Below the pieces are notes generated by a model. It saw only the letters and a program-made list of their open reading frames with translations. It ran no database searches and was not told the origin of the DNA. A DNA stretch of 64,000 nt from Apoderus coryli (Eukaryota; Arthropoda; Insecta; Coleoptera; Attelabidae). This document shows, piece after piece, positions 10,415 to 63,485 of this stretch. The DNA is taken from NCBI GenBank assembly GCA_911728435.2, contig OU452207.1:11760182-11824181 (forward strand), in the 5' to 3' direction. Numbering within the stretch: the first letter of the stretch is position 1; the number at the start of each line of letters is the position of its first letter. The translations under genes and the position numbers were made by a program.

Positions 10415-11071
10415 TTAAAAGTTAAAGAATGGAATACAATCGAACTCTAACTGATCGTTAACAAAGTTGTAGTTGGGGTCACGTTTGTGTAAATTAATTT
10501 CAAGGGATTCCAGTACGTTAAGTAATGTGCTTTTGGAACAGGTGTGAAGTATTTTGGTATTAGTTTCTATGTTGAAAGAATGATGTTGATTGATAACGTG
10601 GTTGGCGAAAGAAGAGTTACTATTGATATCATCTTGGTTTTCTTGTGTTACTTTATCAATAATTTTGAGATGTTCTTTAATTCTTGTTTCGAAACTGCGA
10701 CCTGTTTGTCCGATATAAACTGTGTTACAAATATCAAATCCACATTGCAAGAGATAGACACCTGATTTATTTAACCAATGGGTACTGGATTTGCTATTGT
10801 CTAAGAATTTGCCAATAGTGTGGTTAGTTTTGAAGCAGATTTGTATGTTGTACATGGCAAAGAGTTTTTTGATGGAATACATGAATGGTGCGACATATGT
10901 GATAGGGAAGTACCTAATATCATTGTTGTTTGAAGGAGAGGTAAGACAATTAAAGGTGTTTCTTATCGTATGTTTATAATATATCTTGTTAATTGTAGGT
11001 ATAGGATAATGATTTGATTTAGCTAAGTGATGTATGTGTGCTAACTCAGAATTAAAGTTTTCAAGAGACAT
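10415..11071 (-). pseudogene. Penelope-like element C-terminal ORF with GIY-YIG endonuclease
   Basis: A 218-residue open frame. Residues 1-100 form the linker typical of Penelope-like polyproteins (ends CFKTNHTIGKFLDNSK). Residues from about 105 hold the GIY-YIG nuclease: SGVYLLQCGF, VYIGQTGRSFETRIKEH, then SSFANHVINQHHSF, giving the family's GVY/YIG, Arg, His and Asn landmarks. The C terminus has the common ILHTCSKSTLLNVLESLEI helix. The reverse transcriptase that should precede it is absent: beyond about 11100 the sequence changes character. The copy is therefore 5'-truncated, the usual outcome of target-primed reverse transcription, and non-autonomous. It is in better condition than the relative at 955-1246. 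Confidence 0.8.
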
Positions 11072-33351: not shown

Positions 33352-34279
33352 ATGTCGCAACGTGACAATTTGTGTGGAACATGTAATCAACAAATAACCA
33401 GAAAACAATACTCAGTACTATGTTTTGCCTGTGAGCGTTGGAGCCACATTAAATGTGTGGATGTTGCTGTAGAGCAGGTGAAATACTTTGAGAACGAACT
33501 TAAAAAGAGGAATAGTGATCGCTGGGAATGTCCGTCATGCTTAAGGGACATCATTTCGCGCTCCCAAGTCTCCCGCAAATCTTTGTCCGGCCATGTGCTC
33601 GACACCGCATCAGCGGGTGCTATACCGTCAGCGTCGGTTTGCGTTACGTTGGAGGATATTATGTGTAAACTCAACCAGATGCAGTTGTCATATGACAATC
33701 TTCTAGGAAAATTTAATGACCAACTGGAAATGAATGAAACTCTTAGAGTTGAAGTCACAAGTCTGAAGAATCGATTGAACGTTTTGGAAGCTCGAGCGAC
33801 TGCCAATGACACTGAAACTAATGAAGCTGAGATCTTCCGTGAGTACCCTGAAATGGAGAAACGTAAAAATAATTTGGTTCTGTTTGGCAAGACTGAGGTG
33901 AATGATGAGGGTGTGAAGGGTAGTTGGTGTACTCCAGGCAATTTGCCCTAGCTTCGATGTGACTGGTATTGAAGAAGTAATCCGATTAGGTCGTCGACCT
34001 GAAAATGCGACACGTCCACGACCGATCCAAGTTAGATTGAGGGATGTCAATCTTGTATCTATCGTGTTGCGTCAATCATACAAATTGAAAAGTAGTCAGC
34101 ATTTCAAACATCTTGCTGTGAGCTCGGACAAGACACCAAAACAACGATCCTATTATAAAAAAATTAGACAAAATCTTATGGAGCGGAAAAGGTCAGGTGA
34201 AACAAATATAAGAATTAAGTATCAACAGGGTATTCCTGTGATTGTTTCGACTGCTCAAGTTGAGGAGCATTTAAACTGA
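33352..34279 (+). pseudogene. LINE ORF1 with PHD zinc finger
   Basis: An ATG at 33352. Residues 7-63 form a Cys4-His-Cys3 PHD finger (CGTCNQQITRKQYSVLCFAC, ERWSHIKCVD, WECPSC). From about residue 100 a coiled coil follows (LGKFNDQLEMNETLRVEVTS, LKNRLNVLEA). The frame breaks at about 33945 and continues at 33959-34279 with IEEVIRLGRRPENATRPRPI and a basic segment (KLKSSQHFKHLAVSSDKTPK), which is the C-terminal RNA-binding part seen in such ORF1 proteins. ORF1 products coat element RNA. A PHD in place of zinc knuckles is known for some CR1-group LINEs; what histone or partner it binds is unknown. Confidence 0.75.
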
Positions 34280-34389
34280 TGGCCTTGCCTGACAGAAGTA
34301 ATGTGGATGAACAGACAAATGATGTATCCTTTCTTAATAGAGGTGGAGTAAGTAGTATTGTCCCTACCACGACATATTTTGTGTTTATC

Positions 34390-37147
34390 AAAATGTTAGA
34401 GGTTTGAACACTAAATTAGACACCCTGGTGTCATCGTTGAGCGGTTCCGAGTATGATATGGTAATACTTACTGAGACGTGGCTGCATGGTGACGTAAATG
34501 ATGCTGAACTCTTTTCTTCTGACTATCAAGTTTTTAGGAGGGATAGAATGTATGAAATAAACAATCAGGATAGGGGAGGGGGAATATTGTTGGGAATTAA
34601 AAATAGAATTAAGGCTCAGAAAATAAATAATTCCTATTTTGACACACATTTTCCTAGGATAGATTTTCTTGTTTGTAAGTGTTTTATACAATTTGAGGTT
34701 TATTTTGTTCTTATTGTCTATATTCCTCCAACAATACCAGTTGATGTATTTGAAATGTTTTTGAATTCCGTTGAACTTGATTTTTTACACAGTAATAAAA
34801 TTTTATTTATAGGGGATTTTAATTTAAGCTCATATGTTAATATGAATGTAAATAATATCATGATGGTGAATTTCCAAAATTTTTATGACTTAGTTCAATA
34901 TAATAATGTACTTAATGTAAATAATCGTGTGTTAGATTTAGTTTTGTCAAATGCTGTCTGTACTGTTGGTCGAGAGGAGTGCCCTCTTGTCCCTGAGGAC
35001 AATCACCATCCTTGTCTAAATATTTCTTTTTCAAAATTGTTTAACAAGAAGCATACATTTAGATCTACCAAGGAACACAAAACATACAACTTTAAGAGGG
35101 CTGATTTTCGGTCGCTATATCACTCTTTACGAAATGGAGAATGTTGATCGGGCTGTTGACGAATTTTATAAAGTATTTTATTCTTTGATTGACTCTCATG
35201 TGCCAACTTACAAGAATTTATCTCGTCGTTTTCCGAAATGGTATACGTCATCAATCATAAGAAATATTAAGCTAAAGGAAAAATGTCTTAGGAAGTATAA
35301 GAGGAATAGTGACCAGTATTATTTACAGGAATTTAAAAGGCTTAGGTTAGCAATAAAAATAGAAACTAGAGTTGCTTATGATAATTATATTGATAAGGTT
35401 CAGAATGATATAGCAAGTGAACCTAGGGAGTTTTGGAGATATTTTCAGTCGAAGAAGAATCCCAGGAGTAATGATGTATAGTGATATAGAAATTAATGAT
35501 CCACAATAGTGAATACTTTTGCCAGCTTTTTTGAGAGTGTGTATATGTGTTCGTCAGGATCACGGTCTGATTCACAAGTTTTACCGTGCGTGGACCCGGT
35601 CAGCATTGGGAGCGTTATGGAGAATGAAATTATTTTGGCGGGTAAAAAATTAAAAAACAAATTAACATCTGGGCCTGATGGTATACCATCGTTTTTGGTC
35701 AAAGACTGTGTTCCGGTGCTTGTTGCTCCATTATGTTTTATTTTCAATTTATCATTAAAAAGTAACACATTTTCAGTTCAATGGAAGAAGTCTAGGGTGG
35801 TTCCTGTATTTAAGTCGGGTGATAGGCCAGTGGTTGACAACTACAGACCCATATCCATTCTGTCCAATTTCTGTAAACTGTTTGAGTGTGTGTTATTTGA
35901 TCGCATATATATGTCCGTCCGAGATAAAATTACATCGATGCAACATGGTCTCATGTTAATGAGATCTACCACTAGTAATCTGGCATTAAGGACTCAAAAT
36001 ATTTCAGAGGTGATTGATAAGGGCGGCCAGATGGATGTGATATACACGGACTTCGCGAAAGCGTTTGATAGGGTGGATCATGGGATATTGCTGCAGAAAT
36101 TGGACCAATTTGGTTTTGTTACGGACTTAAGCATTTTTTTTTAATTCATAGCTTTCGAATCGAGAGCAGATTGTATCATATAATCGATCCAGGTCATTGA
36201 CATATCGCTCACTTTCAGGTGTTCCTCAGGATTCTAACTTGGGTCCATTGTTGTTCTTGTTGTTCGTAAATGATTTGGTTAACAAACTGAATTGTGGCAA
36301 GTTATTGTTCGCGGATGATTTGAAGATTTCCTTTGAAACTGAGAGGATTGATGACTGTGATGAGCTTCAAGCTGATTTGGATCATGTGTTGGAATGGTGT
36401 CGGGAAAATAATATTGAATTAAATCCAACAAAATGCAAGAGTATGACATTTACAAAGAAAAAAAGTAAAATTCAGCATATGTATAGAGTGGGTAGGACAG
36501 TAATATCTTCCGTTGATTCTGTGGTTGATCTTCGAATTATTTTTGATCCAGGACTTGGTTTCGTGGATCACATCTTGACCAAAGTAACGGAGGCCAAAAA
36601 AACATATGGTTTTATAGTTAGAAATACCAGAAGCTTTAATAATGTTAGTTCATTGATGGTTCTATATAATGCTTACATTCGTTCTAAGCTTGAGTATGGT
36701 TCATTGGTTTGGTATCCCTTTTATAATACGCATAAAACTACAGTTGAAAAATCCAACGTAGATTCTTGAAATTTTTAATGTTTGAAGAGGAAGGAATTTA
36801 TCCTGAAAGGGGTATCGACTATACCATACAGGTCATTCACATATCGATTTAATTTGCAAAGCTTGGAGACAAGAAGAATTCGAAATTCAATTGTATTCTT
36901 ATATAAGCTTCTGCATGGTAAAATAGATTGTCCTGATATGCTTGGAAAAGTAAATGTTAGTGTTCCAAGAATGGAGGGTCGATATAGTCAAACTTTACAC
37001 ATTGACAGAGCAAGGACGAATGTGCTTCTACGTTCTCCTATTAGTATAATGTGTGCTAACTACAATTGTATTTGCGCGCACTGTGATATCTTCGATTCGG
37101 GTTTGAGTGAAGTTATAGGATATGCCACTGAACACTTTAATGATTGA
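34390..37147 (+). pseudogene. LINE ORF2: AP-type endonuclease and reverse transcriptase
   Basis: Endonuclease (34400-35147): VRGLNTKLDTL, YDMVILTETWL (catalytic Glu), GGGILLGIKN, FIGDFNLSS (catalytic Asp region). A stretch NHHPCLNISF follows where SDH-type motifs lie. RT (35134-36769): SGPDGIPSFLVKDC, YRPISILSNFCKLFE, YTDFAKAFDRVDHG (motif A), GVPQDSNLGPLLFLLFVNDL (a Gly-to-Asp change in the usual QGS) and LLFADDLKIS (FADD box). The C-terminal segment is 36782-37147. Breaks occur near 35140, 35482-35508, 36144 and 36769. The enzyme nicks the target and copies its RNA in place; this copy is dead but fairly young, since frames remain long. Confidence 0.85.
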
Positions 37148-41157: not shown

Positions 41158-42722
41158 ATAAAAAACGTCAACAAATTGACACCAGCGGAATTAGAGGAAC
41201 TGGCTCAAGTAATTTGCGACTCTGATTCAGAAGAAGAATTACACGACGACGATGCTGATACTTCTTCTGAAGAGCACATAGCGGACACTGAACATGATTC
41301 CGCATCAGAAATCGAAGGTAACGTGTCTTTACGTATTACGTCCGATGACAGAAAATGTTGGAAATAGCAGTTACTTTGTTGCCAAAGATATTCTGACTAG
41401 ATGGAACAAAAATGCCCTAAAAAGCAAATTCAGTAAAGTGAACGCTAAAAGTTTTGTGAAAATCTTTCCCGGTGCCAAAAAAGTACATAACTGAATGCAC
41501 GAATCTACACATTTCCAATGTTAGGTCTCAAATTATGAGAGAACGTGACGCTAAAGACGTATCAAAATCAGAAATGCAAGCATTCATTAGTTTGCTATTG
41601 TTATCGGGGTATAAGAAGCAAAATCATACCCACTTTTTGGAAGTCTGGACCACAGATGGTACCGGGTCTGGAATTTTTCGGGCATGTATGAGAAACAGAT
41701 TCCTGCTTATACTTGCCGTTATCCGATTTGATGATAAAAGTACAAGGAACGCAAGAAAAAAGATAGATAAGTTGGCTGCAATAAGATGGGTCATAGATAA
41801 ATTCGTAGAGAATTGCAAGAACAACTACACTGTGGGCGAATTTTTCACAATTGATGAAATGTTGATACCTTTCCGTGTGATGCAAAAATGTTTTATGTGT
41901 CGAATTTTGAAGTTTATTGTGGAAAGCAACCCGAAGGTCCCTACAACATGCCAAATAGACTGCGATTGTTGAAAGAAGTGAAAGGTAGTGATCGGAATTT
42001 GACGTGTGATAATTGGTATTCAAGTTATCCGCTAGCGAAAGAATTGTTGAAAGATAAAATTACTATGATTGGGACTATGAAAAAAAAAAAAATGCGAAAT
42101 ACCGCCTGAATTTTTGCCCCATAAAAGTAGATCTGTGAAATTTTCGTTGTTTGGATTCCAGAAAAACGTAACATTGGTTTCCTATGTACCGAAAACAAAT
42201 AAAGCTGTCGTATTGATCTCAACAATGCACGAGGAAGGAGATATAGATCCAGTTTCGAGGAAGCCTCATATAATCTTAGAATATAACACCACCAAAGGAG
42301 GAGTTAGTTGATACGGTTGATAGAATATGTGGCACATACTCAGTATCAAGAAGAACAAGACGATGGCCTTTGGTTATATTCTTCCAACTGTTGAACATCG
42401 CAGGAATCAATGGACAACTGCTCTATAATGCAACGCATGTCGATTCAGCTTATAAGCACAGAAGAGAATTTTTGAACATGCCAGCATACAGTCGTTGCCA
42501 AGTGACATTAAATGTTTCCTGGCAAAACACAAAAGAACAGCAGAAGACACCAGTGAAGAGCCACCTTCAAAAATACGAGCGAGGTGTTTCATTTGCGACA
42601 GGAAAAAAATTCGAGTCACGACGATCATCTGCGAAAGTTGCAATAGGTCAGTTTGCAAACAACATATGACAACAGTTGTTACATGCGATTCTTGCAAATA
42701 TGGCGAAGCAAGCAGCAACTAA
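41158..42722 (+). pseudogene. piggyBac transposase (copy 2), nearly complete but broken
   Basis: An acidic N terminus (DSDSEEELHDDDADTSSEE), then 41472-41972 with SEMQAFISLLLLSGYKK, HFLEVWTTDGTG, VIRFDDKSTRNARKKIDKLA and GEFFTIDEMLIPFR (first catalytic Asp region). A deletion of about 50 codons follows PFR. 41888-42109 has FYVSNFEVYCGKQPEGPYNM and RNLTCDNWYSSYPLAKEL (second Asp region). 42114-42311 holds VVLISTMHEEG. 42495-42722 ends with the Cys/His cross-brace finger (CFICDRKK, CESCNRSVCKQH, CDSC). The order is complete, but there are at least four frame breaks. Copies at both ends of a gcgggtagcta repeat (about 41045 and 42930) may mark the element ends. Different from copy 1 at 66-948. 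Confidence 0.8.
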
Positions 42723-48285: not shown

Positions 48286-48542
48286 TCTGTGATGGATTAT
48301 GTGACTATGAATAAAACTTGTTTAAAAATTTGAATTTGCTTCGCATGTGGAAGGTTATGGATATTTTTTTTTTTATTTTTGAGTAAAGTAGTTAATTTGT
48401 TACGTTAGTTTATTGGAATTAATGAAAATCATACAATTATAATAATAATTATTATTAAAATTCTGTTTCGTTACGCAGGTCATATATTTTTGATTATATT
48501 AGGTATATCATGTCGGGAAAGTTTTGGGGCGACACAACCGAT
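48286..48542 (+). repeat. dispersed repeat, copy A (about 260 bp)
   Basis: Shares about 85-90 percent identity by eye with 51142-51416, from tctgtgatg to gttttggggcgacacaaccgat. This copy interrupts polymerase copy 3. Confidence 0.75.
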
Positions 48543-48740
48543 CATTTCGTATACGACTATTAAATGCAGATTGTACATTTTCCAACTTAATTCTATCACT
48601 TCTTTTTTCTTCTAAACCTGCTCCTTGTTTACTTGATAGTAATAAAACGAAACGTTTAAAATGTTGAATACTACTTTGTAATTTTTTTCTAAGACCTAAA
48701 TGTAAATCAGTTTGTTGTAATTCTCGCAATTGATTTGAAC

Positions 48741-48753
48741 ACAATTTGATAAA
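48741..48753. repeat. left 13-bp target-site duplication of the ribozyme array
   Basis: acaatttgataaa, identical to 50716-50728. Outside the two copies the polymerase relic continues in register on both sides (…NHAKFFIK-like on the right, QLRELQQTD on the left). Confidence 0.85.
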
Positions 48754-49240
48754 CTTCAATATGTTTGTGATTCTTTGCCTTTCGGCAGAACTTGCACTAT
48801 GGTGTGTTCGAGATATCAATATCTCTACCATATGTTCGCACAAGTATCACGGATTGAAATTTAAACGAAAAACGCTGTCTCGCGGTGTTCCGCGACTGAA
48901 GAGACGAATCGAAGTGATACTTGTGCGAACATATGGTAGAGATATTGATATCTCGAACACACCATAGTGCAAGTTCTGCCGAAAGGCAAAGAATCACAAA
49001 CATATTGAAGTTTGAGCACGGCACCGGAAGGGAATATAGTCGCAAGACATATTCAACCAACCTTCAGGAAAGCCTAGCACATATCTGTGCAATACAGACG
49101 CATGTTTTCGCAACACTTCTCCGCTACTTCCTTGGATGTGACCAACCAAGGAACGTCTTTCGACGTGTGTTTTCACGCATGTTCGAAGTGACACTACTTC
49201 TTATGATTTTTCAGATCACAAGACCGTCTAACTACACCAA

Positions 49241-49292
49241 TGCTATATGGCTTCCTAGCCATACTGATGAGAACTGTCCGAGTTCGAAAGCA
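49241..49292 (+). ncRNA. type III hammerhead ribozyme, unit 1
   Basis: The parts in order are: TGC (stem III, 49241-49243); TA, which with the preceding C makes the CUA cleavage triplet, cut after A49245; TATGGCT/AGCCATA (stem I, 7 perfect pairs, loop TCCT, 49246-49263); CTGATGA (49264-49270); GAACT/AGTTC (stem II, 5 perfect pairs, loop GTCCG, 49271-49285); GAAA (49286-49289); GCA (stem III, 49290-49292). All 13 core positions match consensus. Stem III has only 3 pairs plus the core A-U, so the monomer may be weak and a dimeric fold may help. Confidence 0.85.
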
Positions 49293-49843
49293 GATAGAAT
49301 TTCCATCCCCCAATGTGTAACTCCATTGTTACACGCAACAGAAAATTGTTCAAGGCATTTGCCAAGTTCGTTTTCTATACACCAACTGGAAATATCCAGC
49401 CAGTCAAAGTTTTGCACTTTCTGTTGGAGAAGACATAATTCTACTGTTTCGACTTCGATTCGTCTCTTCAGTCGCGGAACACCACGAGACAGCGTTTTTC
49501 GTTTAAATTTCAATCCGTGATACTTGTGCGAACATATGGTAGAGATATTGATATCTCGAACACACCATAGTGCAAGTTCTGCCGAAAGGCAAAGAATCAC
49601 AAACATATTGAAGTTTGAGCACGGCACCGGAAGGGAATATAGTCGCAAGACATATTCAACCAACCTTCAGGAAAGCCTAGCACATATCTGTGCAATACAG
49701 ACGCATGTTTTCGCAACACTTCTCCGCTACTTCCTTGGATGTGACCAACCAAGGAACGTCTTTCGACGTGTGTTTTCACGCATGTTCGAAGTGACACTAC
49801 TTCTTATGATTTTTCAGATCACAAGACCGTCTAACTACACCAA

Positions 49844-49895
49844 TGCTATATGGCTTCCTAGCCATACTGATGAGAACTGTCTGAGTTCGAAAGCA
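49844..49895 (+). ncRNA. type III hammerhead ribozyme, unit 2
   Basis: Same as unit 1 except that the stem II loop reads GTCTG in place of GTCCG. The change is in the loop, and every paired or core base is kept. Confidence 0.85.
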
Positions 49896-50446
49896 GATAG
49901 AATTTCCATCCCCCAATGTGTAACTCCATTGTTACACGCAACAGAAAATTGTTCAAGGCATTTGCCAAGTTCGTTTTCTATACACCAACTGGAAATATCC
50001 AGCCAGTCAAAGTTTTGCACTTTCTGTTGGAGAAGACATAATTCTACTGTTTCGACTTCGATTCGTCTCTTCAGTCGCGGAACACCACGAGACAGCGTTT
50101 TTCGTTTAAATTTCAATCCGTGATACTTGTGCGAACATATGGTAGAGATATTGATATCTCGAACACACCATAGTGCAAGTTCTGCCGAAAGGCAAAGAAT
50201 CACAAACATATTGAAGTTTGAGCACGGCACCGGAAGGGAATATAGTCGCAAGACATATTCAACCAACCTTCAGGAAAGCCTAGCACATATCTGTGCAATA
50301 CAGACGCATGTTTTCGCAACACTTCTCCGCTACTTCCTTGGATGTGACCAACCAAGGAACGTCTTTCGACGTGTGTTTTCACGCATGTTCGAAGTGACAC
50401 TACTTCTTATGATTTTTCAGATCACAAGACCGTCTAACTACACCAA

Positions 50447-50498
50447 TGCTATATGGCTTCCTAGCCATACTGATGAGAACTGTCCGAGTTCGAAAGCA
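50447..50498 (+). ncRNA. type III hammerhead ribozyme, unit 3
   Basis: Identical to unit 1 in all core, stem and loop bases. Confidence 0.85.
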
Positions 50499-50715
50499 GA
50501 TAGAATTTCCATCCCCCAATGTGTAACTCCATTGTTACACGCAACAGAAAATTGTTCAAGGCATTTGCCAAGTTCGTTTTCTATACACCAACTGGAAATA
50601 TCCAGCCAGTCAAAGTTTTGCACTTTCTGTTGGAGAAGACATAATTCTACTGTTTCGACTTCGATTCGTCTCTTCAGTCGCGGAACACCGCGAGACAGCG
50701 TTTTTCGTTTAAATT

Positions 50716-50728
50716 ACAATTTGATAAA
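50716..50728. repeat. right 13-bp target-site duplication of the ribozyme array
   Basis: acaatttgataaa, identical to 48741-48753. Confidence 0.85.
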
Positions 50729-51141: not shown

Positions 51142-51416
51142 TCTGTGATGTATTATGTGACTGTGATGAATAAAACTTTGTTGAAATAATTTGAATTTGC
51201 TTCGCATGCGGAAGGTTATGTGTTCGAGTCCCAGCTCTGGCAATATTTTGTTTTTAATTTTTGAATAAAGTAGTTATTTGTTACGTTAGATTATTGCAAA
51301 TAATGAATATCATACAATTATAATAATAATTATTAAAATTCTCTTTCGTTAGGCAGGTCATATATTTTTGATTATATTATATCTTGTTGGGAGAGTTTTG
51401 GGGCGACACAACCGAT
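51142..51416 (+). repeat. dispersed repeat, copy B, with a tRNA B-box-like segment
   Basis: Homologous to 48286-48542, same orientation. Contains ggttatgtgttcgagtccca, which resembles a RNA polymerase III B box; the A box is not obvious. Could be a SINE or a fragment of a longer element. Confidence 0.65.
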
Positions 51417-51664
51417 TTTTTTTAAAAACGAAAGTGGTTTTTAATCCAGCTATATTACAGGATGAAATGTGTTTTCGATTTTATATAAATATCAAGTTTT
51501 TTAAATATTATTTATCAATTGAATCGTAAAAGTTTAAGTTAATAACATAACATTTGTAGCAAATAATATTAATTAGTCAAACTTAGTGATACATTTGAAA
51601 TATAGTGATTAGAAAACATAATGCGTGACGAGTATTATAGTACTCAAAAGTTTACTCCTAAAAC

Positions 51665-57190: not shown

Positions 57191-57202
57191 CCTCCATCCT
57201 TA
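57191..57202 (-). other. polypurine tract of element 3
   Basis: The minus strand reads TAAGGATGGAGG, including the env stop codon TAA, immediately before the 3' LTR. It is the usual start of plus-strand DNA synthesis. Confidence 0.7.
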
Positions 57203-58897
57203 AATACAAATCCTAGGGTTAGGGTTTGTTAACTCAATGTCCGGAGTTCCCGTTGAAGTTGTATTCTTGGGACGACTTTTGGAGTGCCATTTCTTCTTGT
57301 AAAAGTAATGCATTGTCCATATTAATAATATTGCAATCATTATGTATATGATGATCGTCCAAAAACTTATTGTTTGGAAGTGAACTATCGGGTTATTAAT
57401 TGAATTAATTTTGTTTTGTTGAATTTCTAAAGCACTCTGAATATTTTTTACGTCATCGAGATTAACACTTTCTAATTTTATAGGTTTAAAGTTAATATTA
57501 GCATCGGATATTGTTATATTATTAATTATTAGTTTTGGGAGTTCAATCAATTTAAAGTCGTTTTTCATGTTTTCGTAGTTTTTTAGTTTTATATTATTTA
57601 TTGTTATTTCACATTCTTTATTTAATTCTAACACATAAGAGCCATTAAGTGGAATATTGTCTTTACTATTACTACATTTTTGAATGGCTATGGTATTTAG
57701 TGGCGTAACAATTATCCATTTGTTTTTTTCTAGTTTCTGAATTTTTAGATTATTTATTGACACAAGGGTTTGTTGACAGTTTGTTAGTCTTTTTAGGTAT
57801 CTTAGCATTTGAATTTCACAAGGATTATCTTCATTAACGATTTTCACTGTGTTGATTTCTTCGCAGAGATGTTCTTCTGGTGTGATTTCTTGGCATTTTA
57901 TGTCAAATAAGGCGTACGAGTCTTCATTGAGGATAAGGTACTTGGTTTTTGGGAATATGGTTTTATATGTGTGGTTATTATGTGGAACAGGAAGGGCGTA
58001 CAAATGAAAGTAGTTATAGTTTTCCTTTTCTACTATTGGAACTTGTAAAATGAATACAATTTTGTTATTTTTATTATAGCATTTGACGTCGATTATTTTT
58101 TCGAAAAATAAGAGATTGTCCATAGTTGGTTCAAAAGGTAGTTTGTTCTGGTCTAGACGTTTATTGATTAAGTAGATTTCATATAAGAGTTCACGTGGGT
58201 CTATTATAGAATTGTGAAAAATATTTAATTTTGAAAATGTTACGGCAGTTTCTATTTTTTCTAATACATTACAAATTATTTGGAATTGACTGGTTATTTG
58301 CGTCAAAACCATATGAATTAGAAAATAATTGTGAGTCTCAATTTCAGCGATTTCAATTTTCTTTATGACATTTTCGATTTGTTTTATTCTTAGTGTTAGG
58401 TAAAACTGATTATGTGTTAGGTTTTGAATATTTTGTTGAAAGGTATCAATAGATTTTTGTAATAATGTGATTTGATCGCTTACTATAGTTTTTATTTTCT
58501 TTTGATTATTTTCTAATTGCGATATAGCTTTGTCATATCTTTCGGCGTCTTCTTGGTCTAGGTTTCCTGTTAAAGATTTAATAACTGTGCCCATGCTATC
58601 AATGAGTCCTCGTTTGTGTATTTTATAATGTGTGGGTAGTAGTTGTCTTATTTGTAAATATATATGTTGTTCTAAGCTATTGATAATGTTGTAAGAATTG
58701 TGAAACTCTTTTTGATACTTACTAGTAATAGAATCGTTTGATTCTAGTGTGTCTTTAATTGTCTTGAATTGATTGCAAAGTAAAGAATATTCATTAATAA
58801 TAGCTGATATGTCGAAAATTTGAATAAATGACCAATGATCTATTTTATTTTGAGCGTTTCCTAACTTTAGGGGAAGTAATCCAGGATTATCATTCAT
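57200..58897 (-). CDS. env: envelope-like fusion glycoprotein of element 3
   Basis: 565 codons, open throughout. It opens with an ATG that overlaps the pol stop in ATGA. A basic cleavage-type site (HKR before GLIDSMGTVIKSLTGNLD, about residues 93-112) sets off the fusion-peptide-like start of the transmembrane subunit, followed by long heptad-rich helices (QLENNQKKIKTIV…). Near the C terminus a membrane anchor, FWTIIIYIMIAILLIWTMHY, precedes a short basic tail. This is the layout of the errantivirus and baculovirus F-type envelope family, which mediates low-pH or receptor-triggered fusion at the cell surface. There is no signal peptide after the ATG. An acceptor-like TTGTTACAG at 58952-58944 in the env frame suggests that the real start comes from a spliced upstream exon, as for gypsy env. 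Confidence 0.85.
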   Translation of the reverse strand: MNDNPGLLPLKLGNAQNKIDHWSFIQIFDISAIINEYSLLCNQFKTIKDTLESNDSITSKYQKEFHNSYNIINSLEQHIYLQIRQLLPTHYKIHKRGLIDSMGTVIKSLTGNLDQEDAERYDKAISQLENNQKKIKTIVSDQITLLQKSIDTFQQNIQNLTHNQFYLTLRIKQIENVIKKIEIAEIETHNYFLIHMVLTQITSQFQIICNVLEKIETAVTFSKLNIFHNSIIDPRELLYEIYLINKRLDQNKLPFEPTMDNLLFFEKIIDVKCYNKNNKIVFILQVPIVEKENYNYFHLYALPVPHNNHTYKTIFPKTKYLILNEDSYALFDIKCQEITPEEHLCEEINTVKIVNEDNPCEIQMLRYLKRLTNCQQTLVSINNLKIQKLEKNKWIIVTPLNTIAIQKCSNSKDNIPLNGSYVLELNKECEITINNIKLKNYENMKNDFKLIELPKLIINNITISDANINFKPIKLESVNLDDVKNIQSALEIQQNKINSINNPIVHFQTISFWTIIIYIMIAILLIWTMHYFYKKKWHSKSRPKNTTSTGTPDIELTNPNPRICI

Positions 58898-61800
58898 TGA
58901 GTAGTATTTGGGGAGTTCTGCTCCGTGTGTTCCGATGAGGAACCTGTAACAATATTAGGAGGACGTTTTAATTCCTTTATATGTATTATTTCGGATTTAT
59001 TTTTGTTTGTTATTTCGACACGATTTCTTTTGAGAATTCTAGTTATTGTATATGGACCTAAAAACTTATTGTGTTTTTTACCGCGGATTGATATTGGGTT
59101 TTGTTTAAATACTCTTTGACCTATTTTAAATTGTGTATTCTCGTTTCCAAATGTATTGTGTTTAGAGATAATTTTTTCTTTGATTGCTTTTTGATTGTCT
59201 GAGACATTTCGATAAATGTGGTCTAATTTTTGTTTATGATTTTCAGCGTAGTCTGAATAAAATTTTTCTGGGATAAATATTTCATCAGGGTTTCTGGAAT
59301 TTGTGTGTCCGAATGTAAGTTCAAACGGTGTATATTTTGTAGAGCTGTGTATAGAATTATTGTATGCAATTAAAGCGTAGTCCATGAGGTTTTGGTTTTC
59401 ATTGGGGAAAGTTTCTTTTAGGAGTCGGAGATGCTCGATTAATGTCGAATGGAATCTTTCGATTGCTCCGTTTGATTCGTGATGTTGTGGTGTTGTGAAA
59501 TGTACGTTTATTTTATGTAGCTTTAAGATTTCTTTGACAGTAAAATTATCGAATTCTGTGCCTTTATCTACGATTATTTTTTGGGGTATTCCGAAATGTG
59601 TAAAATATTTTATTAGAGCTTCGCTGACATTAATTGCAGTTTTTCCGTCAACTAAAATTGCTTGTCCGAATTTTGTAAAAGAGTCTAGAAGTGTTAAATA
59701 TGTTCTTCTATCATAGAAAAATAAATCGATATGTATAATTTCAAAAGGTTTACTAGGAGTTTCTGTTAGAACTAGTGGTGTATAGGGTGGTTTTCTACCG
59801 TATTTTGCGCGTTGACATATTTCGCATGCATTAATGTAATTTGAGACGTCATTTTTCATATTTTTCCAATAATAGTTTGTTTTAATTCGTTCTAAGGTTT
59901 CATTTATTCCTCGATGGTTTGTCTTAGATGTATGGTGAACATTTACCAACATAAGTTGCTCTTCTTTTTCAATTACCGTATGTACTTGTTTTAAGCATCT
60001 AATTAGTTTAGGTCCTTTTTCAAAAAAGTGTTCTAAATATACTTTAGTAAAATTTTTATATAGTTGATCAGAATGGAAATATAAATGATATACTTTTTCT
60101 GATACTATATATTCTTTAAAGAATTTTAAAATAAGGTTTTCATTATTATGAGAAGGGATTTTGACAGTGATAATTTTATTGTTTGCGTAATTTGAATGCT
60201 TTATGTCAAGTTTGTAGTGAGTGTTTGGATATACAATTATTTGATTTGCTTTGTTGTTAATTATATCATCATAAATTGGGATTCCTTGGTTTGTGGTTTC
60301 ATTAAATGTACTGTGCTGTGTTGTCGAGATAGAATTTCTAGGTGGTCGTACTTGTATGTCCGATAATATATTTATTTTGGGGTTTCGTTTACTTTGATTT
60401 GAAGTGCTAGGTTGGGGATCAATTTCTGAGTTTTCAGTTCCTATAAATTTTATTTCTTCTGAAAGTTTCCGAAGATATTCAAGTGTGTCTTGATTTATAT
60501 CGCCAGGGTTATTGATTAAAGATTCATTTTCAAGAGCATTAATTTGTATTCGTGAAAGTGCGTCTGCATTGGTATTAGATTTTCCTGGTTTATATACAAT
60601 ATCATAATCATATTCCTCAAGTTTCAAGCGCCATCTAATTAATTTAGAATTTGGTTCTTTAAGTTTAAAAAGCCAAATGAGGGGTCGATGATCGGTATAA
60701 ATAGTGAATTTTCTGCCAAATAAATATGGTCTAAAATATTTGCAAGCCCAAACTATTGCTAGCAATTCTTTTTCTATGGTACTATAACGAGTTTCAGATT
60801 CATTTAAAGTTCTAGAAGCGAAAGCTACTGGTTTGTCAGATCCAAGTTTTCCTTGAGATAAGACGGCACCAAGGGCAACGTTCGAAGCGTCAGTGGTAAG
60901 TATAAAATTTTGTGTAAAGTCGGGATATTGTAAAATTGGTGAATTTATTAACAAATTTTTACAAGTGTTAAATGCAGAAATAAATTTATTATCATGAATG
61001 ATTTTCGAATCTTTTTTTAAGCATTGTGTAAGAGGTTTTGTTATGTTAGCGAAATCTTTTATAAATTTTCGATAGTATCCTATGAGTCCTAAGAAGCTTT
61101 TTATGTCTTTCTGAGTTTTTGGTAAAGGAAAATGTTTTATAACGTCAATTTTGTCTGGGTTAGGTTTTACTCCGTCACGTGTTATTTTGTGTCCTAAATA
61201 TGCGACTTCATGATGTAAAAATTCGGATTTGTCAAGTTGTACTTTAAGGTTAGATTTCCGAAGTCTGTCGAATATGTTTCTAAGTCTTTCTACATGTTCT
61301 TGTAAAGATGTACTGAATATGATGATATCGTCTAGATAGACTACACAAATTTCATTTTGTAGGCCACGAAGTACATTATCCATTACTCTCTGGAAGGTAC
61401 TAGGTGCGTTCTTCAAACCGAAGGGCATCCTTTTAATTTCATAGTGTCCGTTTTCTGTAGAGAATGCTGTTTTGGGTGTGTCTTGGGGTTCCATTTCAAT
61501 TTGGTGGAATCCATTTGCAAGATCAAGGGTACTGAAATACATACTTTTTCCGAGTTTGTCCAATATGTCATTTATGTTAGGTAGAAGGTATTTGTCATTA
61601 ATCGTTTTTTCATTAAGTTTCCGGTAGTCAATTACCAATCTCCATTTACGTTTTCCGGAGGCGTCTAGTTTTTTCGGTACAATCCAAATAGGACTGGAAT
61701 AAGGTGAAATGCTATCTTGTATAATGCCTTGGTCTAACATATTCTGAATTTGTGTTCTTACTTCTGTTTTATGGATTTCCGGGTATTGATAACTTTTGGT

Positions 61801-62622
61801 AAAAATTGGTGTTTCGTCTGTCAGATTTATTTTGTGTCGTATTTGATTTGTAAATGTTAAAGGGATTTTGTCACAGTAAAATATGTCACGATATTCGAAA
61901 CAGAGTTTACGAATAGCTTCTCGTTCTTCAGGGTTGCAGTGACTTAGTCTTAAATTTTTTAAGTTTTCTTTTTGAGCTTTGTCCATGTTAGTGTCGAGGT
62001 CTATATCAGTTTCCATTTTGTCTATAAAATTTATGTCACCTATATTGAATATTTCTATATCTAATGGTTCTTTAATATTTAATTCTACATCATGTTCATT
62101 AGCATTAATAATGGTTGTTATAGCGAAGTTATTTTTTATATTTACAAGAGCTCTAGGGGTTTCCACTTTATCTAAAAATTTACAATATTCGAGATATCCA
62201 ATTTGATCTGTATTTGTTTTTAAATTAGAGCTTTTAATTGGTATTTGAACGATTTGTTTAGTTCTAGCTGGAATATTAAGTGTATATATTTCTTTTAGTG
62301 TTGTTTCAGGTGTTGATGAATTTTGATTTTCTTTTGAGTCAAAAATTAAAGGAATCTGTGCATGAGGTGTTCTTAACAGTTTAGAATTTATATCAACAGT
62401 TGCTTTGAGTTGTTTTAATAAATCTATCCCTATTAATCCATCATATTTATCACTAAAATTAAATAAATAAAATTTGTGATATTCTTTGGAATTAAAAATT
62501 TTAAAAATTGGAATTTCAATAACTTCATTATGGTATGAGATATTGTGTGCGGTTTGTACATTAAAATCTTCATTGAAAATAAATTTTCGGTAAAAAGTAT
62601 ATGCTAATTGGGGATTAATCAT
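58894..62622 (-). CDS. pol: Pol of element 3: protease, reverse transcriptase, RNase H, integrase
   Basis: 1242 codons from the first ATG; the true product is made by -1 frameshifting from gag at about 62676, so the protease active site (FLIDTGSTRS, 62655-62625) lies just before this ATG. RT: KWRLVIDYRKLNEKTI, YFSTLDLANGFHQIEME (motif A Asp), [24 protein letters not shown] (about residue 428). RNase H: LTTDASNVALGAVLSQ (about 576), [23 protein letters not shown]. Integrase: H/H and CEICQ zinc ligands (about 892-935), catalytic IHIDLF (964), VDKGTEF (1015, where SDNGTEF is usual) and NGAIERFHSTL (1054), then a GPY module (KFLGPYTITRIL). No stop or frameshift. All expected catalytic residues are present, so it could be enzymatically active. 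Confidence 0.9.
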   Translation of the reverse strand: MINPQLAYTFYRKFIFNEDFNVQTAHNISYHNEVIEIPIFKIFNSKEYHKFYLFNFSDKYDGLIGIDLLKQLKATVDINSKLLRTPHAQIPLIFDSKENQNSSTPETTLKEIYTLNIPARTKQIVQIPIKSSNLKTNTDQIGYLEYCKFLDKVETPRALVNIKNNFAITTIINANEHDVELNIKEPLDIEIFNIGDINFIDKMETDIDLDTNMDKAQKENLKNLRLSHCNPEEREAIRKLCFEYRDIFYCDKIPLTFTNQIRHKINLTDETPIFTKSYQYPEIHKTEVRTQIQNMLDQGIIQDSISPYSSPIWIVPKKLDASGKRKWRLVIDYRKLNEKTINDKYLLPNINDILDKLGKSMYFSTLDLANGFHQIEMEPQDTPKTAFSTENGHYEIKRMPFGLKNAPSTFQRVMDNVLRGLQNEICVVYLDDIIIFSTSLQEHVERLRNIFDRLRKSNLKVQLDKSEFLHHEVAYLGHKITRDGVKPNPDKIDVIKHFPLPKTQKDIKSFLGLIGYYRKFIKDFANITKPLTQCLKKDSKIIHDNKFISAFNTCKNLLINSPILQYPDFTQNFILTTDASNVALGAVLSQGKLGSDKPVAFASRTLNESETRYSTIEKELLAIVWACKYFRPYLFGRKFTIYTDHRPLIWLFKLKEPNSKLIRWRLKLEEYDYDIVYKPGKSNTNADALSRIQINALENESLINNPGDINQDTLEYLRKLSEEIKFIGTENSEIDPQPSTSNQSKRNPKINILSDIQVRPPRNSISTTQHSTFNETTNQGIPIYDDIINNKANQIIVYPNTHYKLDIKHSNYANNKIITVKIPSHNNENLILKFFKEYIVSEKVYHLYFHSDQLYKNFTKVYLEHFFEKGPKLIRCLKQVHTVIEKEEQLMLVNVHHTSKTNHRGINETLERIKTNYYWKNMKNDVSNYINACEICQRAKYGRKPPYTPLVLTETPSKPFEIIHIDLFFYDRRTYLTLLDSFTKFGQAILVDGKTAINVSEALIKYFTHFGIPQKIIVDKGTEFDNFTVKEILKLHKINVHFTTPQHHESNGAIERFHSTLIEHLRLLKETFPNENQNLMDYALIAYNNSIHSSTKYTPFELTFGHTNSRNPDEIFIPEKFYSDYAENHKQKLDHIYRNVSDNQKAIKEKIISKHNTFGNENTQFKIGQRVFKQNPISIRGKKHNKFLGPYTITRILKRNRVEITNKNKSEIIHIKELKRPPNIVTGSSSEHTEQNSPNTTQ
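58944..58952 (-). promoter_or_regulatory. candidate splice acceptor for env mRNA
   Basis: The minus strand reads TTGTTACAG followed by GTTCC, inside the end of pol. After it the env frame is open and runs into the annotated ATG at 58897. In gypsy-type elements env is made from a spliced RNA. The donor was not located. Confidence 0.4.
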
Positions 62623-62660
62623 ACTGCGTGTGCTTCCGGTATCTATTAAAAATCTAGCGT

Positions 62661-63485
62661 TTAAACGTGGTATAAAAATATAAGGTAAGTTGGATTTGGA
62701 AAAGGATTTTGTGGACGTGGTTGTGGTGTATTGTTGTGTGCGGGTGTAATTCTGTATGCAGGTTTAAAAGAAGTCTGAGTGTTTAAATAATTGCTGCGAT
62801 TTTGACTATAAAGAAAATTTTCTTCTTCAATTAAAATTGACATTGCTTTTTCTAAAGTATCGGGATTTCTTAGACGAACATTATTTTGAATTTGACCATT
62901 TAGACCACGGATGAAAGTCTTAAGTGCCAAATCGTCGTAATTTTTAATTTTTAAAGTTTTTTCTTGAATACTAATTTCTTGAATAGTATTTAATTTGCTT
63001 ATTAACAAACTACGTGCGTCCTGACATCTCATTCCGAAATTATATGGAGTTTCATTTTTATTTGGTCTTAGCACAATTAAATCCTGAACAAGACAATCTA
63101 TGTTACGTTGGTCTCCGAAAGATAAGTTAAGTGCATCTTTTATAGCTGCCCAGGATCTGAGTTCGGTCCTGGAACCTATGAGACTTAATGCTCTGCCTGA
63201 TAATTTACTAGTGATAGCTCTCAACATAAAATTATTCAATGTAATATTATTCGGATCGTAAAAATTTGTAATAAGACATTCACAATTATCCAAAAATATT
63301 TGTAATGTATGCGGATTTCCATCAAAGGTAGGTATAGTATCCACGTATAATCTTAAAAGCTGGTAATTTACAGTTTGTTGCGTCATTGTGTTTTCCTGAG
63401 AACTAACTTCACGATAGGTTGTAAAAGAGTTAGAAAGTTGTTCTACTAAATTGTCGATATCGTTAGATGTAATAGGATTTGTCAT
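62661..63485 (-). CDS. gag: Gag of element 3
   Basis: 274 codons from an ATG at 63485. Landmarks are TIPTFDGNPHTLQIFLDNCE (about residue 50), SKLSGRALSLIGSRTELRSW, FGDQRNIDCLVQDLIVLRP, NFGMRCQDARSLLISKLN, LALKTFIRGLNGQIQNNVRL and NPDTLEKAMSILIEEENFLY. A short Asn/Pro-rich end follows. It matches element 1 Gag block by block. Gag forms the particle; there is no zinc knuckle, as in related insect errantiviruses. The stop TAA is at 62663-62661, just past a slippery stretch that connects it to pol. Intact. Confidence 0.85.
   Translation of the reverse strand: MTNPITSNDIDNLVEQLSNSFTTYREVSSQENTMTQQTVNYQLLRLYVDTIPTFDGNPHTLQIFLDNCECLITNFYDPNNITLNNFMLRAITSKLSGRALSLIGSRTELRSWAAIKDALNLSFGDQRNIDCLVQDLIVLRPNKNETPYNFGMRCQDARSLLISKLNTIQEISIQEKTLKIKNYDDLALKTFIRGLNGQIQNNVRLRNPDTLEKAMSILIEEENFLYSQNRSNYLNTQTSFKPAYRITPAHNNTPQPRPQNPFPNPTYLIFLYHV
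62673..62679 (-). promoter_or_regulatory. candidate -1 frameshift site between gag and pol
   Basis: The minus strand reads ATTTTTA. The gag codons TTT TTA here can slip back by one base, which enters the pol frame that runs on into the protease active site. The gag stop lies 10 bases further. A -1 shift is what the frame arithmetic requires; the heptamer is near, not exactly, the X-XXY-YYZ rule. Confidence 0.6.

Follow-up and report, generated by a model that had tools for sequence, protein, structure and literature searches.

Animal retrozymes without long terminal repeats (LTRs) are described as tandem repeats of 150–450 bp that carry type I hammerhead ribozymes, and Penelope-like elements (PLEs) are suspected of moving them (PMC7229834, PMC7761336). 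In the published account of these repeats, no conserved motif reveals the mobilising element (PMC7761336). Work on PLEs themselves has outlined a distinctive mode of insertion. A purified lizard PLE is reported to cut and extend both strands of AT-rich DNA in vitro, starting at two internal sites that define a tail (PMC11167929), and head-to-head PLEs with short duplications have been described in rotifers (PMC3846280). Type III hammerheads have been reported from dipteran and termite genomes, and delta-like circular RNAs of toad and termite are described as carrying them on both genomic and antigenomic strands (PMC7936874).

The present analysis concerns a 603-bp repeat in the beetle Apoderus coryli. 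It is centered on a 64,000-nucleotide stretch of DNA, hereafter the window (C16:11760182–11824181 in a 428-Mb assembly of 129 contigs). Judged from sequence, the best reading of the repeat is a non-autonomous retrozyme that is mobilised by PLEs and bears type III hammerheads on both strands, to which we assign a probability of about 0.77. The features discussed below are collected in Table 1.

Table 1. Coordinates in the window of the 603-bp insertion, its hammerheads and termini, and a PLE fragment.
Feature	Position	Strand	Remarks
C-terminal part of a GIY-YIG PLE, candidate type of mobilising enzyme	10418–11071	−	PLE/GIY-YIG reading by eye
Left target site duplication	48741–48753		13 bp, identical to 50716–50728; 0 of 40 shifted controls equal
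Inverted arm	48754–48915	−	Unit positions about 539–700, minus orientation; outer end is the tailed terminus (unit position ~97)
Forward arm	48914–50715	+	Spans 1802 nt (2.99 units); tailless terminus at its outer end, unit position ~596
Plus type III hammerhead, unit 1	49242–49292	+	Predicted cut after A49245; RF00008 12.6 bits
Minus type III hammerhead, unit 1	49443–49491	−	GUC site, H17 at 49488; RF00008 23.5 bits
Terminus motif TCGTTTAAATTTC	49499–49511	+	Matches TCGTTTAATTTC of PLE copies L036 and L037 save one extra base
Hairpin	49505–49616	+	10-bp base (AAATTTCAAT with ATTGAAGTTT) contains both family termini; tail about 104 nt
Plus hammerhead, unit 2	49845–49895	+	Predicted cut after 49848; descriptor match
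Minus hammerhead, unit 2	50046–50094	−	H17 at 50091; descriptor match
Plus hammerhead, unit 3	50448–50498	+	H17, the predicted cut, at 50451; descriptor match
Minus hammerhead, unit 3	50649–50697	−	H17 at 50694; descriptor match
Right target site duplication	50716–50728		13 bp, identical to 48741–48753

The initial annotation had described positions 48754–50715 as a tandem of three forward 603-bp units. This span coincides exactly with a single insertion, composed of an inverted and a forward arm and flanked by 13-bp direct duplications of the target site (ACAATTTGATAAA). The two arms have 2 nt in common at their junction. With position 1 of the unit set at 48914, the tandem period is exactly 603, as indicated by 16 mismatches at lag 603 (48900–50115) against 873–922 at ten other lags tried; this test and the 1802-nt forward stretch confirm the three units. 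The copies had also been said to differ at a single position, located in a loop. The C/T difference at 49882 does fall in loop II, but a second variable site had been missed, which reads A at 49484, A at 50087, and G at 50690. On the minus strand, this variant corresponds to a stem I pair, G-U or G-C, of a second hammerhead described below. The site is polymorphic (A/A/G) along the array and the inverted arm has G (48883), such that first-copied segments carry G and inner units A. Since units 1 and 2 both have A where the inverted arm has G, fold-back copying of either unit is a disfavoured origin for the arm.

The window as a whole looks eukaryotic, and probably arthropod, in its composition and mobile elements. 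The surroundings of the insertion contain further repetitive DNA. A diverged direct repeat lies on either side of it (48324–48547 and 51185–51421), about 2.87 kb apart and 89–94% identical in pieces. Other mobile elements in the window include a LINE with endonuclease and reverse transcriptase pieces (33352–37147; PF00078, with the endonuclease recognised by its relatives) and a Gypsy-type retrotransposon (57200–63485), in which pol was assigned by Pfam and a gag-like and an envelope-like third ORF by eye. A transposase piece of the DDE_Tnp_1_7 family (PF13843) at 41472–41969 is presumably of the piggyBac type.

A type III hammerhead with a stem I of 7 bp and a stem II of 5 bp had been proposed for each forward unit, and a descriptor search recovered it in all three, with a stem III of 3 bp plus an A-U closing pair. 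The same descriptor identified a second type III hammerhead per unit on the minus strand, with a GUC cut site, CTGAAGA, and GAAA. This ribozyme is present in every unit of the array in the window and was absent from the earlier account. In 100 dinucleotide shuffles of the window, searched on both strands, a loose descriptor produced 7 matches, none as good as the observed hammerhead. Among 20000 shuffles of the unit, a hammerhead-like fold occurred on either strand in 10 and on both strands in none.

The Rfam comparison that the initial annotation had suggested gave a divided outcome. RF00008 (Hammerhead_3) matches both ribozymes on short stretches of 81 and 76 bases, with 23.5 bits for the minus hammerhead (E 0.0019 over 4227 families) and 12.6 bits for the plus hammerhead (E 2.5), both of which lie below the gathering score of 48.5. 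Neither hammerhead was found at the gathering score, nor at E 10 on 2301 bases, where the sole match was a miRNA hairpin. Six pieces were also folded alone. The complete hammerhead formed in two of them, both from the plus strand and 51 nt long, while in a 65-nt plus piece stem III was lost and the other two stems formed. A competing helix appeared beside stems I and II in two minus pieces of 49 nt, in which stem III is cut short, and a 68-nt minus piece adopted a different fold in which the hammerhead was not recovered. On the basis of fold and core, both ribozymes are assigned to type III and are predicted to cleave themselves.

The unit belongs to a dispersed family. A 301-bp piece of it occurs in at least 47 places in the genome, grouped into at least 26 loci including the window (best 40 of 394 candidates scored), and a piece of the tail adds at least 15 further loci (44 rows; best 40 of 118 candidates scored). 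Counts of arms, ends, and duplications cover the 26 loci, namely the window and 25 further loci. Two arms are present at 19 loci, always minus then plus, and one arm at 7. Target duplications of 11–17 bp (11–14 bp in 13 of 14) flank 14 of the 26 loci, two of them with one mismatch, and 0 of 40 shifted controls reach any of these; the remaining 12 loci have no duplication above control. Dispersed copies with target duplications, for which the initial annotation had proposed a search, are supported by these sequences.

All 14 loci with duplications are head-to-head and possess the same two outer ends, at unit positions ~90–100 (...CATATTGAA) and ~590–601 (...CGTTTAA). The spread of these positions arises because some bases are shared with the target. 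Each of the two-armed loci without a duplication (L011, L023, L028, L029, and L033) has at least one end away from both fixed points, and the ends of the one-armed loci L030 and L031 also lie away from them. Inner junctions occur at scattered positions. A possible cluster close to where the plus hammerhead would cut (positions 326, 327, 337, and 337) comprised too few cases to claim and was dropped. Seven of the 14 duplication-flanked loci have an arm exceeding 603 nt, up to 1802 nt in the window and 2078 nt (~3.4 units) in L022, which implies a circular or multimeric template. No 3′ tail repeat or poly(A) was found at the ends of the copies, which have two fixed ends instead of a single 3′ end. 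Likewise, no LTR layout was found in the family, and its duplications measure 11–17 bp, not 4 bp. Many copies carry indels, and identities down to 81–88% suggest a long residence as a genomic family.

This mode of insertion recurs among the PLEs of the same genome. The C-terminus of the PLE in the window has at least 150 matches in the genome (best 150 of 2865 candidates scored), and Pfam at 1e-3 returned no match for the 10418–11071 piece. Within the 150 scored matches, neighbour pairs at distances of up to 10 kb comprise 28 minus-plus (head-to-head), 9 minus-minus, and 3 plus-plus pairs, and no plus-minus (tail-to-tail) pair. Four head-to-head PLE loci were checked, and all four display a duplication (12, 13, 13, and 13 bp), one tailless end (...CGTTTRATTTATA), and one end with a tail of ~40 nt (...CATAAAA). 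The insertion mode of the 603-bp family is PLE-like in the same respects: head-to-head, with a short duplication, one tailless end, and one tailed end (~104 nt).

The termini provide a further, more limited, connection. The terminus motif sits at the tailless end of the unit, with full matches only at 49499, at 50102, and in the inverted arm (minus strand); a score of 11/12 is reached at ten places on the plus strand of the window, the third unit among them. The PLE ends were already known when this motif was picked, and their more common form is CGTTTGATTTAT, not the TCGTTTAATTTC of L036 and L037. Apart from the motif, a blastn comparison of the unit with 20 PLE loci to E 5 revealed no shared sequence, and the tailed ends of unit and PLEs show no resemblance. 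The hammerhead descriptor found none in the 20 PLE loci, although it may miss forms without helix III. In the single-sequence fold, the 10-bp hairpin base is paired, placing both start sites opposite each other in the element. In the RNAalifold consensus of 10 rows (10 distinct rows out of 16 copies), the upper hairpin is paired and the 10-bp base unpaired; in 2 of these rows a U-A pair is replaced by A-U, the one double change of this alignment, whose covariation term is unfavourable overall. Three PLE pieces that were folded have the tailless site in a hairpin loop, whereas in the 603-bp unit it lies at the hairpin base.

The PLE copies at 10418–11071 of the window and at C16:11757997–11758650 lie 12.6 kb apart, and both are 100% identical to the query protein. 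Their ends and the bases beyond are identical over the 80 bases compared, which possibly reflects a local duplication at the left edge of the window.

At the level of sequence, the family thus combines two predicted ribozyme folds, fixed termini, a head-to-head structure, target duplications, and arms longer than one unit. It also has a layout common to PLEs of the same genome, together with one shared terminus motif. The original proposal of a retrozyme-like element inserted by the reverse transcriptase of another element gains support from the duplications, the fixed ends, and the PLE layout and motif; what it had overlooked is that the inverted arm recurs across the family, that both termini are fixed, and that there is a match to the ends of PLEs.

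Divergence among copies adds information on templates and age. The pooled per-site difference is 0.0099 within loci (53 pairs), a figure to which the window copy (W), L010, and L022 contribute 9441 of 13376 sites, versus 0.0552 between loci (1528 pairs). In L022, five overlapping segments are 0.3% apart and the nearest other locus differs by 2.3%, as if one template had been copied repeatedly. In L020 (3376–4304), the two arms are 6.8% apart, more than the 3.6% that separates them from the nearest other locus, as if each DNA end had received an RNA template of its own. In several old loci, the diversity inside equals that outside. Single-template copying is not general across loci. W, L009, and L010 differ from each other by less than 0.5%, and some insertions are therefore recent.

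Constraint is uneven between the two ribozymes. Substitutions per site amount to 21/1261 in the plus hammerhead, 66/1248 in the minus hammerhead, and 588/10691 in the remainder. By substitution, the plus hammerhead is the slowest-changing 51-nt segment of the unit (9 of 603 segments are as low, with starts at 49242–49250), and the minus hammerhead overall changes at a rate like the rest, with no slowing. Gaps number 37/1261, 17/1248, and 188/10691, respectively, and the plus hammerhead has no deficit of deletions. One stem I pair of the minus hammerhead has changed on both sides, from C-G to U-A, in 6 of the 20 aligned rows; these rows come from 4 loci and probably represent one or a few events (alignment A2: 20 of 21 distinct rows of 47 copies, with one truncated row dropped). 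The pairs of the plus hammerhead show no double change. Alignment A3 retains 12 of 15 distinct rows of 38 copies, three with large deletions having been dropped.

Hammerheads on both strands are also what an animal retroviroid would possess, that is, a viroid- or zeta-like RNA replicating from RNA to RNA by a symmetric rolling circle, with both strands cutting themselves and a DNA phase gained by repeated capture through PLE enzymes. If true, this reading would connect viroid-like agents and retrotransposons through a living intermediate; we consider it unlikely. Sub-lineages at scattered loci would agree with it, as would a unit length of 603 (3 × 201) with one long sense ORF. Each unit contains one stop in the sense frame and four in antisense, and a 200-codon open run is unusual (9 of 5000 shuffles), with a frame of at most one stop in 5 of 5000. 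The sense frame shows fewer locus-level changes at codon position 2 (254/181/247), but distinct changes are spread evenly across the three codon positions (105/97/105) and new sense stops are as frequent as expected without constraint (17 observed versus 15.2). A coding zeta-like agent was rejected on these grounds: the zeta-virus reading fails on coding because the ORFs are without constraint on stop codons. Similarly, the circle is strongly self-paired (z −6.8 plus and −5.2 minus; 10 control stretches −1.3 to 1.4), but its minimum-energy fold is branched, with 12 and 16 hairpins, and not rod-like; 105 of 194 pairs (plus) and 89 of 204 (minus) lie on the longest path. The ORF pieces have no relatives among 5.8 billion proteins or in the viral contigs, phages, and prokaryote contigs searched, and one piece searched against the PDB had none. 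Pfam returned no family above cutoff for them (two weak matches lie below), with neither reverse transcriptase nor GIY-YIG. The long residence suggested by copy identities of 81–88% also speaks against this reading.

Mobilisation of a short element by a LINE, with the inverted arm as ordinary twin priming, would account for the 13-bp duplication and 5′ inversion of the window copy, and an element with endonuclease and reverse transcriptase pieces is at hand in the window (33352–37147). Across the family, this account becomes very improbable. Two arms are found at 19 of the 26 loci, among them all 14 that have duplications, the copies lack a 3′ tail repeat or poly(A), and the insertion layout is common to PLEs of the same genome; ordinary twin priming is disfavoured in particular by the fixation of both outer ends in those 14 loci. 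Satellite DNA carrying a hammerhead by chance would suit the tandem units of the window and the ~3.4-unit arm of L022, but scattered copies that have fixed ends and are flanked by target duplications reduce its probability to almost nil.

For the preferred reading, a PLE-mobilised retrozyme, the following course can be envisaged. The plus hammerhead would cut transcripts of tandem copies to 603-nt monomers, which would then be closed to circles; the minus hammerhead could likewise cleave antisense transcripts. A hairpin in the RNA would serve as binding site for the reverse transcriptase/endonuclease of a PLE, which would cut AT-rich DNA with a stagger of 11–17 bp (11–14 in 13 of 14). Both ends of the DNA would prime cDNA synthesis, which would begin at two fixed sites facing each other at the hairpin base, and the two cDNAs would run along or round the RNA before being joined head-to-head. 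Cleavage, RNA circles, and a PLE as the source of the enzyme are what we infer from these features. Reverse transcription round a circle would be expected to leave arms like those observed, which start at fixed sites, reach 3.4 units, and are near-identical within L010 and L022.

Four features suggest the involvement of PLE enzymes, namely the target duplications, the pair of fixed termini, the head-to-head arrangement, and the terminal motif in common, and the PLE hypothesis set out in PMC7229834 therefore becomes testable. The presence of hammerheads on both strands suggests that antisense RNA also matters. Elsewhere, such an arrangement is known from viroid-like infectious RNAs, including some plant viroids. 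The open-licence literature searched yielded no description of an animal genomic element that carries hammerheads on both of its strands.

Compared with metazoan retrozymes as described in PMC7229834 and PMC7761336, the 603-bp family likewise consists of small non-coding units that each contain a hammerhead, with a GC content below 50%, target duplications longer than 4 bp, and PLEs in the same genome. It differs in its 603-bp unit, type III hammerheads on both strands, head-to-head structure (tandem in some copies), and PLE-like end. With PLEs, it shares head-to-head insertion, AT-rich targets, short duplications, tailless and tailed ends, and start sites inside the RNA, as these are reported in PMC11167929 and PMC3846280. 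Unlike them, the unit has no reverse transcriptase or GIY-YIG ORF, for which 603 nt would be too short. PLE hammerheads are described as minimal type I, whereas those of the unit are type III, and the tail measures about 104 nt in contrast to the 30–40 nt given for PLEs. The pDo500 satellite of Dolichopoda is likewise an insect repeat (about 500 bp) with a conserved hammerhead; it makes up about 5% of the genome of one species, and its description in PMC2837043 mentions neither inverted insertions nor a minus-strand hammerhead. Plant LTR retrozymes have two LTRs, a tRNA primer site, and 4-bp duplications, while the present family lacks an LTR layout and has duplications of 11–17 bp.

The zeta viruses, a name that reportedly originates from the Serratus paper, and the retroviroid-like CarSV of carnation, which has hammerheads of both polarities, complete the comparison. 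Like zeta viruses (324–789 nt), the unit bears hammerheads in both orientations and has a length that is a multiple of 3; unlike them, as characterised in PMC11721086 by sense and antisense ORFs without stops and by a rod, it has no endless ORF pair, is branched, and forms a genomic family. CarSV is a small hammerhead RNA with a DNA counterpart (PMC9608096), and the 603-bp unit has DNA copies and predicted hammerheads on its two strands. CarSV DNA is reported in a pararetrovirus and in the host plant genome (PMC9608096), whereas the 603-bp unit occurs as PLE-type insertions in an animal genome.
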